DNA from: Thermoanaerobaculia bacterium
Lineage (GTDB): Bacteria; Acidobacteriota; Thermoanaerobaculia; Multivoradales; J023
Direction: 5' to 3'
Length of the DNA stretch: 64,000 nt
NCBI GenBank assembly: GCA_030431255.1
Contig: JAUIJL010000001.1
Coordinates: forward strand, 434,001 to 498,000
In this document: positions 3,232 to 39,114 of the stretch, piece after piece
Layout of the letters: each line of letters opens with the position of its first letter
Numbering within the stretch: the first letter of the stretch is position 1
The notes under the pieces: generated by a model
The model's database searches: none
Told to the model about the DNA's origin: nothing
Seen by the model: only the letters and a program-made list of their open reading frames with translations
Program-made: the position numbers and the translations under genes

Positions 3232-5850
3232 CTACGAGGTTCCGCGATCCAAGGAGGCGATCAGCTCCCGCAAGCGCGAGCTCTCCTCGGAGCCCTCCGA
3301 CGACAGGTCGAGGGCTTCCCGAGCGGATTGGAGGGCCCGAGGGTGGTTGCCTACGGCTTCGTACGCTCTAGCCAACAGCGCAAGGGCTTTCTCGTCCTTG
3401 CGATTCGTATCCTGGACGGCTCTCAGGGCCAAGGCGAGAGCTCGATCCGGATTTCGAAGGCCGCCGGCGACAGGGGATAGCAGCACCTCGGCGTATTCGA
3501 GGCGGTCTTCGGTCCGGGCCATCGGCCCTTGGCAGACCTGCTCCAGAGCCTCGGCGAAGCGTCTCAGGTAGGCCTCGTATTTCTCTGGCGCACCGGTTTC
3601 CCCGTAGAGAATGACGACGTTTTGAAGCCCTTCCAAGGTGCTCGGATGGAGCTCACCGAGGGTGCGTCGCTTCACCTCCAGGTTTTCGAGCAAGAGCTTC
3701 TCGGACTCTTCGTATCGCCCCTGTTTGAGATAAAGCCAGCCGAGGTTGTTGACCATGATCAAGGTGCTCGGATGCTCGTCTCCCAAAATCCGTCGCGACG
3801 GGCCGAGCCCTTCTCGGAGCAGCTTTTCCGCTTCCTCAGTACGGCCCCATCCGAGATAAAGCGAGGCGAAGCGGTTGATGGCGTTGACGGTCCGTGGGTG
3901 CTCGTCACCGTAGTGGGCTCGATTGAAAGCCACCACCTCTCGGTGGATTTTCTCCGCTTCCTGCCAACGTTTCGTATAGCGATAAACGATGGCCAGTCTG
4001 GCGAGCACCCGCATGGTGTCGGGATGCTCTTGACCCAGAAGAGCTTTCCGATCCCCATGAACGCGCAAGAAAAGCTCTTCCGCTTGTCGGTAATGTCCGG
4101 CTTGCTGGCGGATGATCGCCAGCTCTTCGATGGCCGAGAGGCCGAGCTCGTCGACGGATTCCACCTCCACCGCCGCGAGCTTCGACAGCCCCTTCCCCCA
4201 AGCCCCTTCAAGAGCCTTCTCCGCATCGTCGAGACGCCCTTGACCTCGGTAGAGGGTTCCGAGCTCGAGATGGAGGGCTCGGGTCACGGCGGCTTGTGGC
4301 CCTAGGTGGCGGCTGAACAGCTCGAGGGATCGGAGCAGGTGTGGCTCTGCGGCGGCGAGCACCCCGAGGGAGCTGTAAGTTCTGCCGATGGTCCGGCGCA
4401 GCGACGCCTCCACCATGGGCTGATCGGAGAACCGACCCTCGACATTCTGAGCCGCTTTGTCGAGCACTTCGCGCATGGTGACGTCGATCCCTTGACGTCC
4501 GGGGGCCACCGCGGCGAGCAAATCGTCGTTCAAGAAAGCGTTGACCTCGTCGGCGATCGCGGCATGGACGCGCGCTCGCTCCGCCTCCTGGCGAGCGCGG
4601 ATCATGCCGACCGAGGTGCCGATGGTACCGATCACCAGAGCGAGCAGCGCGAGGCAGGCGACGGCCAACAATAGAGCATGTCGGCGCACGAATCGGCTGA
4701 GCTGATAGACGGTGCTGGGAGGTCGCGCGGTGATCGCCTCATGGGCTCGGTATCGCCGGAGGTCGGCCGCCAGCTCGAAGGCACCGCCGTAACGTCTCGT
4801 TCGATCTTTCTCCAGGGCCTTCAGGGTGATCCAGTCGAGGTCACCGCGTAGATGGCGGACGAGGGAGTCGGGATCGGTCAGACGACAGCTTGCCCGGTGG
4901 CCGGCCTCTTTGTCGCTTTGAATTCGGGTGCTCGGCGGTTTTGGATCTCGGCTGGCGAGGGTTTGTTGTATCTCGCCGAGGGGCGCGCTTTGGAAATCGA
5001 AAGGGCGGAGACCAGTCAAAAGCTCGTAGAGCAGCGCCCCCAGGGAGTAGACATCGGCTCGGGTGTCGACGTCCAATCCGCTGCCCTGGGCCTGCTCGGG
5101 GCTGACGTAACCCGGTGTGCCCACGAATCCCCCGAGCCGGGTGTGCAGGGTGATGTCGCTGAGCCGCTGATAAAGCATTTTCGCGACCCCGAAGTCGATC
5201 ACTTTGGGGGTAGCCTTGCCGTCGGCCTCTTCCACCAGGATGTTGGAAGGTTTCAGGTCTCGGTGGATGACGCCTTTTTGGTGGGCGTGCTGCACCGCCT
5301 CACAGACCTGGATGAAGAGCTCCAGCCGCTGGTCGATCGAGAGCCGGCGTTGATCGCAATATTCGAGCAACAGGGCACCGGGCACGTATTCCATGACGAA
5401 GAAGGGGCGTCCATCTCCGGTGGATCCGGCGTCGAGGATACGGGCGATGTTGGGATGGCTCATCAGCGCCAGGGCTTGACGCTCCGAGTGAAACCGACCC
5501 AGGGCTTCCCGGCTGTAGGTCACCCCCTTGATCAGCTTGAGGGCCACCTTCCGGCGAACGGGCTCCATTTGCTCGGCGACGTAGACGATGCCCATGCCGC
5601 CTTCTCCCAACCGTTCAAGCAGGCGATAAGGGCCGATTTTCTGGGGCTCCGGTGGTCGCAAAGCCGGCGAATCGAGGGTCACCGGACAGAGCTCGGGACG
5701 CTCGTGGGCGGCGAGCAGAGCCCGGATGCGGGGCTCGAGATCCGGTGCCCGTTCGGCGATTCCATGCAGGAAGAGCCGCCGCGCATCCCCTTCGAGCTCC
5801 AAGGCCTGCTCGAAGAGGCGACGTTCGGAATTCAGGGCGGGTGTGTCCAT
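3232..5850 (-). CDS. Serine/threonine protein kinase with C-terminal TPR repeats
   Basis: Start taken at MDTPALNSERR (5850); IGPYRLLERLGEGGMGIVY, VIHRDLKPSNIL, DFGVAK, GTPGYVSPEQA; TM segment; repeated TPR motifs (ARLAIVYRYTKRWQEAEKIHREVV). Confidence 0.92.
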   Translation of the reverse strand: MDTPALNSERRLFEQALELEGDARRLFLHGIAERAPDLEPRIRALLAAHERPELCPVTLDSPALRPPEPQKIGPYRLLERLGEGGMGIVYVAEQMEPVRRKVALKLIKGVTYSREALGRFHSERQALALMSHPNIARILDAGSTGDGRPFFVMEYVPGALLLEYCDQRRLSIDQRLELFIQVCEAVQHAHQKGVIHRDLKPSNILVEEADGKATPKVIDFGVAKMLYQRLSDITLHTRLGGFVGTPGYVSPEQAQGSGLDVDTRADVYSLGALLYELLTGLRPFDFQSAPLGEIQQTLASRDPKPPSTRIQSDKEAGHRASCRLTDPDSLVRHLRGDLDWITLKALEKDRTRRYGGAFELAADLRRYRAHEAITARPPSTVYQLSRFVRRHALLLAVACLALLALVIGTIGTSVGMIRARQEAERARVHAAIADEVNAFLNDDLLAAVAPGRQGIDVTMREVLDKAAQNVEGRFSDQPMVEASLRRTIGRTYSSLGVLAAAEPHLLRSLELFSRHLGPQAAVTRALHLELGTLYRGQGRLDDAEKALEGAWGKGLSKLAAVEVESVDELGLSAIEELAIIRQQAGHYRQAEELFLRVHGDRKALLGQEHPDTMRVLARLAIVYRYTKRWQEAEKIHREVVAFNRAHYGDEHPRTVNAINRFASLYLGWGRTEEAEKLLREGLGPSRRILGDEHPSTLIMVNNLGWLYLKQGRYEESEKLLLENLEVKRRTLGELHPSTLEGLQNVVILYGETGAPEKYEAYLRRFAEALEQVCQGPMARTEDRLEYAEVLLSPVAGGLRNPDRALALALRAVQDTNRKDEKALALLARAYEAVGNHPRALQSAREALDLSSEGSEESSRLRELIASLDRGTS

Positions 5851-6036
5851 AGCGAAGAGCTGTCCTGATCCACTGAATATTCCACTCGCTCCCATCGGTC
5901 GTATCCACTCCATAGACCGCTTCGGGAATCGAGCTAAAAGAATCTCGTCCTCGGTGAGCCATTCACCCAGCGAGTTGCGCATGGGGTTCAGAGGCTTCCA
6001 AGAAGCCACTGATACTGAACCATGAGGAGATATGTG

Positions 6037-30838: not shown

Positions 30839-30994
30839 ATGAACCCGAAGCAAGTGACCCCGCAGGATCTGAAAGCCCAGGAAGCCGGTCCGATCCAGAC
30901 CCGAGATCATGAGCTGAGCACCTGTCCGACCTGCGTCTCGGGCATTGAAGCGTCTACCCTCGAGAAGAACTATCTCGAGATTCTGAAACGCTGA
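30839..30994 (+). CDS. Candidate RiPP precursor peptide (51 aa) MNPKQVTPQDLKAQEAGPIQTRDHELSTCPTCVSGIEASTLEKNYLEILKR
   Basis: Strong GAAGGAG RBS; CxxC core-like motif; directly upstream of a DUF692/MNIO gene. Confidence 0.75.
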   Translation: MNPKQVTPQDLKAQEAGPIQTRDHELSTCPTCVSGIEASTLEKNYLEILKR

Positions 30995-31004
30995 TCCCCA
31001 CATT

Positions 31005-31040
31005 TCCGGCCCCGTGTCCGCATGCGGACGCGGGGCCGGA
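31005..31040 (+). promoter_or_regulatory. Strong hairpin between peptide and MNIO gene (possible attenuator or mRNA-processing element)
   Basis: TCCGGCCCCG-T-GTCCGCATGCGGAC-G-CGGGGCCGGA, overlapped by alternative hairpin CGGATC-TTC-GATCCG. Confidence 0.7.
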
Positions 31041-31123
31041 TCTTCGATCCGCATCCGAAGCTCACCATCCAATTCCGTTCTCGATTCCAGCCCGGCGAGA
31101 CCGCACCTCTCCAGGAGACCTCC

Positions 31124-32041
31124 ATGGGTTTGAGCGACCCCATTTCTGAGATTCCACGCTTGGGCGTGGGTCTATCGTTCCAGGACACCCTCTCCAATTT
31201 CGTGTGCGAGCACTTGGATGCGTTCGACTACCTGGAGGTCGTTCCCGATTCCCTGTGGGACGATCGTGGCCGGGGTGCCCGACCGCGCTATGAAGAGAAA
31301 CAAGCTTTCCTCGACTTGCTGGGATTCGTCGCTGAGCACAAGCCGATCATCGGTCACAGCATCGGCCTGTCCATCGGCACCGACGACGACATCGATCCCG
31401 AGCACGTCGAGCAGATCGCCACATGGCAGAAGCGCTACCAATTCCCTTGGCATAGCGACCATCTGAGCTTCAACCGTTTGGACCACGCCAGCGGCCATTC
31501 CATCGACGTCGGCTTCACCATGCCGGTGCCATACGATTCCGCGGTCCTCGATCTGCTGGCGAGCAAAGTCGACACCATGCAGCGCCGGGTTCCGGCTCCT
31601 TTCCTGCTGGAGAATAATGTGTATTATTTCCAGATTCCCGAGCAGGAGATGACCGAGGCGGAGTTTCTCAACCGGCTCACGGAGCGCACGGGCTGCGGCC
31701 TGCTGCTCGACCTGCACAATGTGTATGTCAACTCTCGCAACCACGGCTTCGAGCCCCGGGAATTTCTCGAAGGCTTCGATCTCACCCGAGTGGTGGAGAT
31801 GCATATCGCCGGTGGCTTGAGCGTGGAAGGGGCCTATCTCGACGCCCATTCCGGCCCTTGTCCCGAAGCGGTGTGGGATCTGCTGGATTGGGTCATGCCG
31901 CGGGTGCCGAACCTCGGCGGTGTGACCTTTGAGGTGTTCTCCACCTACTATCCGAAAATGGGACCCGAGCGATTGCTCGAGGAGCTGGCCCGAGCGCGCG
32001 AGGCCACCGCCGATCATTTCGCCGCCACCGCGGCCTGTTGA
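31124..32041 (+). CDS. DUF692 / MNIO (multinuclear non-heme iron-dependent oxidative) enzyme, MbnB/TglH-like
   Basis: LGVGLSFQDTL, FDYLEVVPDSLW, IGHSIGLSIGT, WHSDHLSF, LLENNVYYF, TGCGLLLDLHNVYVNSRNHG, VVEMHIAGGLSVEGAYLDAHSGPCPEAVWDLLDWV; start at MGLSDP with AGGAG. Confidence 0.9.
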   Translation: MGLSDPISEIPRLGVGLSFQDTLSNFVCEHLDAFDYLEVVPDSLWDDRGRGARPRYEEKQAFLDLLGFVAEHKPIIGHSIGLSIGTDDDIDPEHVEQIATWQKRYQFPWHSDHLSFNRLDHASGHSIDVGFTMPVPYDSAVLDLLASKVDTMQRRVPAPFLLENNVYYFQIPEQEMTEAEFLNRLTERTGCGLLLDLHNVYVNSRNHGFEPREFLEGFDLTRVVEMHIAGGLSVEGAYLDAHSGPCPEAVWDLLDWVMPRVPNLGGVTFEVFSTYYPKMGPERLLEELARAREATADHFAATAAC

Positions 32042-32062
32042 GCCCAGAGGTTTGGCGCGGGA

Positions 32063-32701
32063 ATGACACTCCACGGCTTTCAACAGGCCCTCTCCGAGCT
32101 GGTTCTATCGTCGGATCTGCGATCCCAAGTCGCGGATCGGGGAGCCGACGCCCTCGGCGCCTTCGATCTGGATCCTAGAGAGACGCGGCGGCTGCTGTCG
32201 ATCGCCGAGCAATCGGGCTTGGGCACCGGTATTCTGATCCACCGTTCTTTCCGCCTCAGCATGTTGGTGCGCTCGCTGCCGCGAGCCTGTGAGCTGCTCG
32301 GAGCCGGGCTGTCGGATCTGGTCCACGACTATTGGGACGAGCATTTGCCTCTGCACTACAACTTTGTTTGGGAGTCGTGTCGGTTTGCCGGTTACCTGAG
32401 GCGGCAGTTGGAAGACGGCTCGTTGACGGAGCCGCTGTTGAGCGACCTCTTGCGCATCGACCTGGCGTCCATGGCCTTGCGGCGGGGTTTGCAGCCCGAG
32501 CAAGTCGCGCTGGATCCGCGGCCCGGAGCCGGCGACCTCTTGGAGGCATCGACTCCGAATCGGCTGGTCTTATTCTGTGGCCACGACCCGCGAGCGCTGC
32601 TGACCGGCGACGACCCAGGGGCGGCGAGCCCGTCGAGAGGGGAGTATCGGCTGGTCATCAGCCGACAGCCGGGCGGCGATCTCGAATTCGAATCGGCCTG
32701 A
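32063..32701 (+). CDS. MNIO partner protein (MbnC/DUF2063-like RiPP recognition protein)
   Basis: Position directly after the MNIO gene; N-term LHGFQQALSELVLSSDLRSQV and later LPRACELLGAGLSDLVHDYW similar to such partners. Confidence 0.65.
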   Translation: MTLHGFQQALSELVLSSDLRSQVADRGADALGAFDLDPRETRRLLSIAEQSGLGTGILIHRSFRLSMLVRSLPRACELLGAGLSDLVHDYWDEHLPLHYNFVWESCRFAGYLRRQLEDGSLTEPLLSDLLRIDLASMALRRGLQPEQVALDPRPGAGDLLEASTPNRLVLFCGHDPRALLTGDDPGAASPSRGEYRLVISRQPGGDLEFESA

Positions 32702-32719
32702 GGCGGTCCATCCTCGGCC

Positions 32720-35164
32720 ATGAAGCTCCCGCAGCGAAACGTGCTCGACCGCCACAGATGGTCGGTCATCCTCACCTTGGCGATCCTCACTTTGGCCGTC
32801 GGTCTCGGGGCGGGCGCCGTCGGCTTTACCGTGCTCGACCGGGTGTTGCTCAGGCCGTTGCCGTTTCCCCAATCGGAAACCCTCTACGCCCTGCACCACA
32901 CCGCCCCCGGTTTGAATCTTGCACGCCTCGAGCTGTCCGACGCCACCTATTGGTTGTATCGCCAGAGCCGGACCCTGGACGGCTTGGGAATTTACCGAGT
33001 CACCGACGTCGACGTCACGGGAGATTGGGCGCCCGAGCGGTTGACCGCAGCCCTGGTGTCCGCGGAGCTGCTGCCCATGCTCGGGGCCGTGCCGGTCCAC
33101 GGTCGGGGATTCGTCGACGAGGAAGAGGTGCCCGGCGGCATCGACGCGGTGATGATCGGAGCCGGCTATTGGCGTCGGCGATTCGGCGGTGAAAACGAGA
33201 TCTTGGGCCAACGCCTCATCGTCGACGGCCGGCCACGCACGATCGTCGGAGTGCTGCCGTCGACCTTTCGCTTTCCGTCGTCCGAGGTCGATTTGTGGAT
33301 GCCCCTGGCCCTCGATCCAGAGACCGCCGTGGGGGCCCGTTTCGAATTCTCGGCCGTCACCCGTTTGCCCTCGCGGTCGGCGGTCGATTCGGCACTCGGG
33401 GATTTGCGCGGCCGACTGCCGCGCCTGGTGGTGGACTACCCGCAATCGCGCTGGACCGAGGCCTTGCTCGAATCCTCGGACCTGACACCGGTTCTAATAC
33501 CGCTCAAGGACGAGCTGGTGGGAGGTCTGAACGACTATCTTTGGGCCCAAGCGGTAGCGGTCGGCCTGCTGCTGCTGGCCGCCTGCCTGAACGTCGCGAC
33601 CCTGCTCTTGGTGCGGGCGGAGGATCGACGGCCGGAAACGGCCCTGCGGGTCGCCCTCGGTGCCGATCGTCGACAGCTTTTGGCACACCACTTGAAGCCG
33701 GGGCTGGGGATCGGTGCGGCGGCAGGAGTGCTGGGCCTCGGGTTTGCCGTCATTGGGCTGCACCTTTTGGCGACCCATGGACCTGAAATCTTGAGCTCGA
33801 CGCGTCGCCTGACCGCCGACGGACGGACCGTGCTGCTGACCCTGGGCGTGGCCCTCGCGTTGGGCACCGCCCTGGGTTTGCTCACCGGATTGCGCGGGGT
33901 GGAGGATCCGGCTCGATGGCTGCGCTCCGGCGGCGCGACCCCGGCCCAACAGCGGGAGCGAACGGTGTTGGTGGTGCTTCAAGTGGCGGTCGCCACGGCA
34001 TTGTGCACGGGGGCCGCCACCCTGGGCGTCGGTTTGATGGAGCTGCGCCGCGTGGACCCGGGCTTTGAGGTCAACCATGCGCTGAGCTTCGATCTTCGGC
34101 TGCCAAAGGCCCGATACGCCGACGCCGACGCCGTGGCGGCCTTTTACGGCAGAGCTCTCGAGAGTCTGGCAAGCCTGCCAGGAGTCGCGTCCGTGGGTGG
34201 CGTCCACCGCCTGCCGCTCACCGGGGGGGGAAGCACCAACGGCTGGACCGCCGAGGGCGCGACCCGCGGACCCGACGAAGGTCCGGCCGTTTTCGCCACC
34301 CGATGGGCGTCCGAGGGGTATTTTCAGGCCATGGACATCCCCCTGCTCCGGGGGCGTGCCTTCGAGCCGGCGGATCGCGAGCTGGTCAGGCCGGTGGCGG
34401 TGATCAGCCACGCTTTCGCGACCCATTTCTGGGGCGACGAGGATCCATTGGGCCGTCGCATCGCCCTCGGCACCGGCGAAAACGGTCCGTGGTACACGGT
34501 GGTCGGCGTGGTCGGCGACGTCCGGGATCGCAGCCTGAGCGGGCCTCCGGAGGCCATGGCCTACCTGCCCCTGATCACCCATTTACCCCGCCGAGAAGCA
34601 GCCTACGCGCCGTCGCAGCTGAGTCTGGTGCTGCGGGGCGGGGTCGGTGGCTCTGGTTTCGGTCCGGGCTTCCAGCCCGCGATACGTCAGCTTATTTCCG
34701 AGCTCGATCCCGAGCTGCCGATCAGCCGCATGGGACCCTTGGAACACCTGGCACGGAACGATCTCGCCGCTTCGCGTTTTGCCCTGACGCTGCTTCTCGC
34801 CACCGCTGGGGCCACCGGAGTGCCGGCAGTCGTCGGTCTATTCGGCTTGATCGCCTATTGGGTCCGCAGCCGGCGACGGGATTTCGGCGTGCGCCTGGCC
34901 CTCGGAGCCGATCCCAGGCGATTGCTGTGGCAGGTGCACGGCAAGTCCTTGAGGCTCACCGCGATCGGGGTCGTCCTCGGCTTGGTCGGAGCCGGCGTCG
35001 CCGGCGGTTATGTCGAGCATTTGATCTACGGGGTGCGCGCGATCGAGCCCTGGATCTACCTGACGGTGGCGCTGCTCTTCCTGCTCACCGCCCTGGTCGC
35101 CGGCCACGGGCCGGCCCGCCATGCGGCCAAGACCGATCCTCGGCAGGCCTTGCGCCAGGACTGA
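32720..35164 (+). CDS. ADOP/MacB-like ABC transporter permease (FtsX domains)
   Basis: VLDRVLLRPLPFPQSETL, SAELLPMLGAVPVHGRGF, VVGVVGDVRDRSL, VRSRRRDFGVRLALGADPRRLLWQV, DPRQALRQD; no ATPase fused. Confidence 0.88.
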   Translation: MKLPQRNVLDRHRWSVILTLAILTLAVGLGAGAVGFTVLDRVLLRPLPFPQSETLYALHHTAPGLNLARLELSDATYWLYRQSRTLDGLGIYRVTDVDVTGDWAPERLTAALVSAELLPMLGAVPVHGRGFVDEEEVPGGIDAVMIGAGYWRRRFGGENEILGQRLIVDGRPRTIVGVLPSTFRFPSSEVDLWMPLALDPETAVGARFEFSAVTRLPSRSAVDSALGDLRGRLPRLVVDYPQSRWTEALLESSDLTPVLIPLKDELVGGLNDYLWAQAVAVGLLLLAACLNVATLLLVRAEDRRPETALRVALGADRRQLLAHHLKPGLGIGAAAGVLGLGFAVIGLHLLATHGPEILSSTRRLTADGRTVLLTLGVALALGTALGLLTGLRGVEDPARWLRSGGATPAQQRERTVLVVLQVAVATALCTGAATLGVGLMELRRVDPGFEVNHALSFDLRLPKARYADADAVAAFYGRALESLASLPGVASVGGVHRLPLTGGGSTNGWTAEGATRGPDEGPAVFATRWASEGYFQAMDIPLLRGRAFEPADRELVRPVAVISHAFATHFWGDEDPLGRRIALGTGENGPWYTVVGVVGDVRDRSLSGPPEAMAYLPLITHLPRREAAYAPSQLSLVLRGGVGGSGFGPGFQPAIRQLISELDPELPISRMGPLEHLARNDLAASRFALTLLLATAGATGVPAVVGLFGLIAYWVRSRRRDFGVRLALGADPRRLLWQVHGKSLRLTAIGVVLGLVGAGVAGGYVEHLIYGVRAIEPWIYLTVALLFLLTALVAGHGPARHAAKTDPRQALRQD

Positions 35165-35338: not shown

Positions 35339-36070
35339 ATGAACGACGAGCATGAGCTGAATCAGAGTCTTGCGGTTTTGATTGACGCCGACAACGCACG
35401 GGCCTCGGTCATCGACCCTCTTTTGGCAGAAGTGGCCAAATACGGGGTTGCCAGTGTGAAACGAATTTACGGCGATTGGACGACGCCGCAGCTGGGAAGC
35501 TGGAAAGCAGTGTTGTTGGAGCACTCCATCCATCCCGTCCAGCAGTTTCGCTACACGGTAGGAAAGAACGCCACCGACAGCGCCATGATCATCGATGCGA
35601 TGGATTTGCTCTTCACGGGACGATTCGACGGATTCTGCCTGGTGTCGAGCGATAGCGACTTCACCCGGCTGGCTTCGCGGATTCGGGAAGAAGGAAAGCG
35701 AGTCTACGGCTTCGGCGAGAAGAAGACCCCTCGACCGTTCGTCGCGGCTTGCGACAAATTCATCTATTCGGAGGTGCTGCTGGCCGACGCGTCCACCGAT
35801 GCTCCGTCCAAGGGCAAGAGCGGAAAAGAGCTGCGCGGTGACACTCATCTGGTGAGTCTCCTGCGCACGGCCGCGGATGCCGTCTCCGATGACGATGGTT
35901 GGGCCCATCTGGGAGCCCTGGGAAGCCATATCGCCAATCAGGCTCCGGATTTCGACCCCCGAAATTACGGTTTTAAGAAGCTCAGCGATTTGGTGGTTGC
36001 CATCGGCCTCTTCGAGGTCAGCCGGAAGTCGAAGAATATTTTGATTCGCGACGGACGGAAGCGGGCCTAG
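35339..36070 (+). CDS. NYN-domain RNase-like protein with C-terminal OST-HTH/LOTUS domain (LabA/DUF88-like)
   Basis: LAVLIDADNARASV, NATDSAMIIDAMDLLF, GFCLVSSDSDFTRLASRIREEGKRVYGFG; C-term SHIANQAPDFDPRNYGFKKLSDLVVAIGLFEV. Confidence 0.9.
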   Translation: MNDEHELNQSLAVLIDADNARASVIDPLLAEVAKYGVASVKRIYGDWTTPQLGSWKAVLLEHSIHPVQQFRYTVGKNATDSAMIIDAMDLLFTGRFDGFCLVSSDSDFTRLASRIREEGKRVYGFGEKKTPRPFVAACDKFIYSEVLLADASTDAPSKGKSGKELRGDTHLVSLLRTAADAVSDDDGWAHLGALGSHIANQAPDFDPRNYGFKKLSDLVVAIGLFEVSRKSKNILIRDGRKRA

Positions 36071-37416: not shown

Positions 37417-39114
37417 TCAGGGGCAACCGACGAGCTTGACCTGAAGGGCTTCCATGCGTCGGCTCTGACCGGTGGTGCCGGCGGTGGCGCCGTTGCTGAC
37501 CCAACCGTGCCAACCCTGACCTTTGACATGGGCGCGGTATTGAACACTGCAGCCCGCCGGCGGATTGACCAGCCAGACCTTGATCGCTTCCATGCGCCGG
37601 CTCTGACCGGTGGTGCCGGCGGTGGCGCCGTTGCACACGGAGCCCATCCAGCCGTTGCCTTTGACATGAGCTTGGTAGCAAATCGAAGTTCCGGAGGGCG
37701 GGTTGATCAACTTGATTTGGGCCGCCTCCATGCGTCGGTTCTGGCCGGTGGTGCCGGCGGTCGCGCCATCGAGCACCCAGCCGAGCCAACCCAGGCTCTT
37801 GACGTGAGCCCGATACTGCACATGCATATTTTCGTCCCGGATGGTGACCCAGCGGACTTGCTCATCCCAATTCGTGCAGCCGTTCTGGACCGCCAGCTTC
37901 ACTCGATAGACGGTGCCGCCACCGAAGTCGGTGAAGTTGTAGTGGTTGGCGAGATTGACCGAGCCGACCTGACCACTGAACCAACTGGACCAGTAGTTGC
38001 CGGACACGGTGTTGCTACCCACAGAGTTGGTGCGATAGATCTCGATGAAGTATTGGGCCTCATTCTCGCTGGCGCTGCCGTTGAGCACGACGTTAGAGCT
38101 GTCGTAGGACGTCGAAGGTAAGGTGAAGGAAGCGGTAGCCTCGCGGCATTCGCACATGGAAAGGGTTTCCATGCGGGAGCCGCCGTTGTCGTTCGCCCAA
38201 TGGGTGGTGTCGAAATAATCCTTTACCCAAATGGGGAAGCCGGGCGCGTTGATGGTGAAGTCACCGAGCTTGGTCACTTTCTTGTCGTTGCTACGCACCT
38301 TCTGGAAGAAAATGTCATAGGGCGGGGTGCAGTAGGAGTCGGTTCGTCCAAGGGAGCCGCGCACGCCGATGGTGTCGGCTTTCTCGCCCCACCACCAATT
38401 GAAGAGGCCTTTCTTCTGGTTCTTGGTCGTCCCGCCGACGGAGGCGTAGAGGCCCCAATTGCCGATCCATTGCTTGGCCTTCATGCGCCGGCTGCCGCCG
38501 GCATAGGTGTAGTGCTGGACCTCGGAATGGCTGCTGCGGCAGCACGACGACTTGGCCGAGTAGCTGTTGAACGTCAGGTCCGTGGAGCCGCTGCCACCAC
38601 TTATCTCATCGAATAGGTAGCCCTCGCGCAACGCATCCAAAGACTCGATGTCCGCTGCGTCGACTTCATAATAACCATGGGGGTAGTAGCGGTAGATGGT
38701 GCCACCGACCTGGACCTCGCCTTGGGGATTCAGCAGGCCGCGGAAGTATGGGTCGTGCACCTGGTGATCATCGGGATCGTTGAATTCGTCGACGCCACCG
38801 GTCTCGTCGAAGATCGCCAGCTCGGTCTCGATCGACATCAGGAGCGATTCAAAGCCGAGCGAAAGGGCGAAGTCTTGAAAGACCGGGGCGTCCCGTTCGT
38901 CGCCCTCGCGTCCTCCGGCCTCGTCCTCGAGCTCCTGCTGGGCGATCAGCTCAGACATCACGGCGGCGAAGTGGTCCGTGCTTTCGAATACCAGCATGTC
39001 TTTATCGATGAGGGGTAGATCGTACCCCTCATTGGGTGACTCGGCAGCGAAAGCCGGCGAGTCGAAGACAATGGCAAGAAAAAGGCATGAGAACAAGGCG
39101 AAATAGCGGCGCAT
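37417..39114 (-). CDS. Secreted protein with three C-terminal ChW (clostridial hydrophobic W) repeats
   Basis: Signal peptide; VQYRAHVKSLGWLGWVLDGATAGTTGQNRRMEAAQIKL, CYQAHVKGNGWMGSVCNGATAGTTGQSRRMEAIKVWL, VQYRAHVKGQGWHGWVSNGATAGTTGQSRRMEALQVKL. Confidence 0.85.
   Translation of the reverse strand: MRRYFALFSCLFLAIVFDSPAFAAESPNEGYDLPLIDKDMLVFESTDHFAAVMSELIAQQELEDEAGGREGDERDAPVFQDFALSLGFESLLMSIETELAIFDETGGVDEFNDPDDHQVHDPYFRGLLNPQGEVQVGGTIYRYYPHGYYEVDAADIESLDALREGYLFDEISGGSGSTDLTFNSYSAKSSCCRSSHSEVQHYTYAGGSRRMKAKQWIGNWGLYASVGGTTKNQKKGLFNWWWGEKADTIGVRGSLGRTDSYCTPPYDIFFQKVRSNDKKVTKLGDFTINAPGFPIWVKDYFDTTHWANDNGGSRMETLSMCECREATASFTLPSTSYDSSNVVLNGSASENEAQYFIEIYRTNSVGSNTVSGNYWSSWFSGQVGSVNLANHYNFTDFGGGTVYRVKLAVQNGCTNWDEQVRWVTIRDENMHVQYRAHVKSLGWLGWVLDGATAGTTGQNRRMEAAQIKLINPPSGTSICYQAHVKGNGWMGSVCNGATAGTTGQSRRMEAIKVWLVNPPAGCSVQYRAHVKGQGWHGWVSNGATAGTTGQSRRMEALQVKLVGCP

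Follow-up and report, generated by a model that had tools for sequence, protein, structure and literature searches.

Four closely spaced genes at positions 30839-35164 of a 64,000-nucleotide stretch of Thermoanaerobaculia DNA (the window) raise the question of whether they form a RiPP cluster built around an MNIO enzyme, which of them belong to it and whether its chemistry is new. MNIO enzymes carry out unusual oxidative peptide chemistry within a superfamily that is still largely uncharacterised. The initial annotation described four same-strand genes, and the positions agree: a precursor peptide, an MNIO, a partner protein and a permease follow one another in the same direction, separated by gaps of 129, 21 and 18 nt.

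Enzyme, partner and precursor

The gene at 31124-32041 (+ strand) encodes a 305-residue MNIO (DUF692, MbnB_TglH_ChrH) enzyme. Its assignment to DUF692, made earlier from family motifs, holds: the protein matches PF05114 with an E value of 4.8e-62 and 210 bits (gathering score 25), and its matches in the PDB are 3BWW and TglH (8HCI). The iron ligands of TglH are His71, His107, Glu151, Asp184, Asn187, His216, Asp229, His231 and Glu258 (PMC10880893). In an alignment read by eye, all nine are identical in the window MNIO (H78, H113, E163, D196, N199, H227, D240, H242 and E270). The most likely start is the ATG at 31124, which matches the homologue in genome G970; an extended reading frame opening at 31022 is less probable. 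Among NCBIfam entries, the best models for the enzyme are BufB (NF050167; 169.7 bits, cut-off 310) and HvfB, the latter also matched far under its cut-off. Scores against ApyH (134.6 bits, cut-off 400), ChrH (69.8 bits, cut-off 600) and MbnB (TIGR04159; 22.4 bits, cut-off 325) are lower. Because all five models remain far below their cut-offs, the enzyme is placed in the superfamily and in none of these named equivalogs.

The next gene (32063-32701, + strand) encodes a 212-residue protein that the initial annotation called an MbnC/DUF2063-like partner. The protein has no match in Pfam or NCBIfam, and a PDB sequence search with it returned nothing relevant. Its AlphaFold model (pLDDT 81) has a helical N-terminal domain and a short beta-rich C-terminal part. 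In a Foldseek search of 350,542 chains, the model retrieved TglI (8hci_A) at rank 1 and NGO1945 (3dee) at rank 2, which are the two reference structures for MNIO partners in PMC12452194. The TglI match is modest (E 2.4e-3, probability 1.00, TM 0.51). By predicted fold, the protein is a TglI/NGO1945-like, PME-type 2-like partner that lacks the DUF2063 signature. The earlier description therefore stands for a TglI/DUF2063-like predicted fold, whereas likeness to MbnC is not demonstrable, no MbnC match having been obtained.

Homologues of the partner are encoded 3′ of the MNIO in relatives. That of G970 has 261 residues and reaches DUF2063 with an E value of 0.069 only. Since the window partner is shorter than this homologue and ends in a short beta-rich stretch, its recognition domain is probably reduced, a state described for many type-2 partners in PMC12452194. 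The N terminus of the G970 partner (locus L120, 2414-3199) gives weak matches to NHLP-clan/Os1348 (E 0.0008) and Frankia_peptide (E 0.0038), both under their cut-offs, which may point to a relationship of leader-like helices with partner proteins.

Upstream of the MNIO lies an ORF of 51 codons (30839-30994, + strand; MNPKQVTPQDLKAQEAGPIQTRDHELSTCPTCVSGIEASTLEKNYLEILKR), which starts with an ATG at 30839, a few bases behind an AAGGAG ribosome-binding site, has a stop ending at 30994 and has homologues upstream of related MNIOs. No hydrophobic signal segment is present in the 51 residues, as judged by sequence rather than by SignalP, in agreement with the earlier view of a precursor without a signal sequence. 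A search of NCBIfam with the peptide gave no match, TIGR04222 included. The putative leader spans approximately residues 1-27 and includes a TPQDL motif, and the putative core is CPTCVSGIE, in which the codons of the conserved C-P-T-C-V-S-G-I occupy 30923-30946 (+ strand). In the six-frame translation of the window (125,285 residues), CxxC occurs 111 times and CxxCxSG once, at this peptide. A promoter scan of the + strand, uninformative for such an organism, found none.

Recurrence and distribution of the cassette

The closest MNIO found is that of G970, a genome of the same order, which is 62-63% identical to the window enzyme and lies in a cassette with precursors and a partner. Upstream of this MNIO lie tandem ORFs encoding 48 residues (MEIMMQEVQTTPEQIVKLPDQGECPTCASGADPNIGNALFLDALRDSL) and 47 residues (MEKTTQEAQTPQRIVDTPDPGMCTTCISGTDPYVTTALFQEALQDAR), bearing CPTCxSG and CTTCxSG. 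The SW score of the window peptide against the first (47) was equalled in none of 1000 shuffles, and its score against the second was reached in 13 of 1000. The window and G970 peptides have in common a TP[QE]x[IL]-like segment on the N-terminal side and CxTCxSGx[DE]. Immediately upstream of the G970 cassette is an NRPS gene (locus L126, 58-3261).

More distant MNIOs, in G1074, G221 (44% identical to the window MNIO) and G075 (40%), are each accompanied by a partner and by a CxxCxSG peptide that has no signal sequence. The cores read CDPCRSGLD in G1074, CNACKSGLD in G221 and CAGCKSGFD in G075; further cores are CGGCHSGFD in G1000 and CTACCSGWD, in two tandem copies, in G431, and G1006 has a looser form (CLRCGLGGFD). 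The likeness of the window peptide to these more distant precursors is confined to the core. The initial annotation expected a conserved small ORF upstream of DUF692 homologues and a conserved CPTC. Such ORFs were found, for example in G970, G221, G075 and G1074; the CxxC is kept in relatives, and the conserved core proved to be wider, CxxCxSGx[DE]. Because the same set of genes recurs in distant relatives, the cassette of precursor, MNIO and partner is real and conserved.

In G431 and G1000, a separate partner gene was not seen. Their MNIO ORFs encode 494 and 467 residues, respectively, and the C-terminal part of each is recognised by the profile of the partner (HHalign E 1.4e-13, probability 98%). 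These fusions of MNIO and partner support a joint function. The fused enzymes adjoin peptides of the form LGCxxCxSGxD[IL]RF; at loci L151 (4430-5914) and L153 (2778-4181), such peptides lie upstream of the fusions, two in tandem in L151.

Fifty MNIO domains were placed in a tree, built by a quick method with SH-aLRT support only. The window enzyme and those of G970, G1074, G221 and G075 fall within one supported clade, which also includes the two fused proteins; of its ten rows, eight carry the motif. The remaining two are G197, with a CEACGR variant, and one long-branch row. As the distant clade members have long branches, their exact placement is unsure. The motif label requires 4 changes on the tree, against a shuffled mean of 9.3, and none of 500 shuffles was as low. 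Two motif matches outside the clade proved spurious on inspection. Motif matches in L007 and L039 were discarded because they fall in a Gly/Cys-rich tail that belongs to a larger membrane protein, and those in L080 and L121/L136 for want of a plausible precursor ORF. The L039 protein (4047-5012; 321 residues) lies directly 5′ of an MNIO and is TIGR04222-like by eye.

The distribution of the cassette is patchy. Of 149 genomes in the class, only the window genome and G970 encode so close an MNIO; the cassette is absent from G951, a genome of the same genus that is 95% complete, and a contig scan with the window MNIO yielded distant loci only. Profile searches of the Gammaproteobacteria (the class of G297) and of the phylum of G299 yielded for the most part MNIOs with scores well under those of the close relatives, the exception being G431, by its precursors. 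G431 was also the sole find of the precursor profile among 340 gammaproteobacterial genomes, a match in G342 having been rejected for internal stops, and plasmids searched with the G431 precursor gave no match. A second MNIO of the window genome (locus L041, G000:C44:101100-112000; approximately 5060-5878) has a 79-residue peptide upstream (CELCGHC) and, downstream, a 674-residue glycosyltransferase-like protein with a C-terminal tail that is PqqD-like by eye. This locus is possibly another RiPP type.

Relation to described MNIO pathways

The initial annotation recognised the precursor as neither methanobactin, TglA nor bufferin, and the model scores below cut-off and the missing signal segment agree with this. 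The TglHI pathway (3-thiaglutamate/pearlin) shares with the window system the nine iron ligands, the TglI partner fold and a signal-less scaffold peptide of approximately 50 residues. However, the Cys of its precursor is C-terminal, whereas the window CxxC is internal, and a peptide-tRNA ligase was not recognised among the neighbouring genes examined. The bufferin (BufABC) and HvfB-type thiooxazole pathways share the order precursor-MNIO-partner and supply the best NCBIfam models. By contrast with bufferins, the window peptide lacks a signal peptide and multi-Cys bufferin repeats, its MNIO scores 169.7 bits where BufB requires 310, and its partner is without the Pfam DUF2063 signature. Methanobactin biosynthesis by MbnBC is alike in its MNIO superfamily enzyme, leader-type precursor and Cys core, but the window MNIO scores only 22 bits where MbnB requires 325, and no MbnC match was obtained.

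A nearer counterpart is adjamnio-7. The survey by Antoine et al. 2025 (PMC12452194) describes under this name signal-less MNIO precursors with CxxC in MNIO cluster 7, and links signal-less precursors to type-2 partners. In the open-licence papers searched, no mention of CxxCxSG came to light. The window system resembles adjamnio-7 in its precursor without a Sec signal peptide, its CxxC motif and its place in an MNIO gene cluster, the comparison with this family (representative WP_078758616, from Novilysobacter spongiicola) being by description only. The proposal of a new MNIO class is weakened because such precursors had been described there in 2025; the placing of the system under none of the models for methanobactin, Tgl or bufferins stands. 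That the window system is simply a member of adjamnio-7, new only as to host lineage, has a little under an even chance of being correct. The published description fits, and gammaproteobacterial G431, with its CTACCSGWD precursors, belongs to the same MNIO clade as the window. However, the G431 MNIO is only approximately 29% identical to that of the window, and the window peptide has 51 residues, compared with 66-87 in the wider relatives. The CxxCxSGx[DE] core and the MNIO-partner fusions are features of the window clade that are not mentioned for adjamnio-7 in the accessible part of PMC12452194.

The window system is thus a real variant of a type of peptide cluster already reported. More tentatively, and with the balance tilting against it, the CxxCxSG clade could constitute an uncharacterised MNIO subfamily, partly fused to its partner, whose reaction on the paired-Cys core has no counterpart among known MNIO chemistries and yields metal-binding peptides of a new type.

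Candidate chemistry and limits of the cassette

The three genes probably form a RiPP cassette in which the partner presents a CxxCxSG precursor whose Cys the MNIO would rearrange oxidatively. The precursor would be of the leader type, rather than the signal-peptide type, with a single CxxCxSG core. The partner may bind the N-terminal part of the peptide, around TP[QE]x[IL], and present the CPTCVSG segment to the multinuclear iron site of the MNIO, where iron and O2 would effect the oxidative rearrangement of one or both Cys. Most likely, Cys would be converted into a heterocycle or thiol group comparable to thiooxazole or oxazolone-thioamide, and the outcome would be a small metal-binding peptide. 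Drawn from what is known of the family, leader binding by the partner followed by oxidation of the CPTCVSG Cys would be the best-supported mechanism, with Cys oxidation the most likely chemistry.

A different target is conceivable, given that some MNIOs are known to act on Asp or Asn (PMC13174530) and that the peptides with the motif have D or E directly after SGx. The iron enzyme might modify this residue by hydroxylation or backbone cleavage, leaving the Cys pair to bind metal or form a disulfide. We consider this unlikely: the residue is Glu in the window and Asp in the others, whereas both Cys are invariant in the precursor alignments, and known MNIO reactions take place mostly on Cys (PMC12257519). 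The system could decide between thiooxazole-type and new chemistry on a signal-less CxxC core. It is compact, with one enzyme, one partner and a short precursor holding a single paired-Cys core, and its natural variants (tandem precursors and MNIO-partner fusions) could ease expression.

The fourth gene (32720-35164, + strand) matches TIGR03434 with 652 bits, above the cut-off, which confirms the ADOP-family (MacB/FtsX-like) permease named earlier. Its inclusion in the operon did not hold up. The window genome contains 63 ADOP matches, 37 of them over the curated cut-off, a large expansion, and no transporter lies beside the cassettes of G970, G221, G075 or G197. The permease is therefore treated as a neighbour, probably by chance, and not as part of the cassette. 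A single functional operon of all four genes, with the permease exporting the modified peptide, would accord with the shared strand and the 18-nt gap, yet against these related cassettes and the abundance of ADOP genes it is improbable. Less probable still, and very nearly dismissible, is that the peptide ORF arose by chance, the true MNIO substrate being a different one that is not linked to the enzyme gene: a 51-residue ORF is by itself weak evidence, but this one has a ribosome-binding site, the only CxxCxSG in the window and conserved homologues at the same position.

Among the neighbouring genes, which are only partly annotated, neither a protease nor a dedicated exporter was recognised. 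Downstream of the permease, positions 35339-36070 of the window encode a protein that combines an NYN nuclease domain with an OST-HTH/LOTUS domain. Positions 37417-39114 encode a secreted-looking protein with C-terminal repeats (YRAHVKGxGWxGWVSxGATAGTTGQxRRMEA) that resemble ChW repeats.
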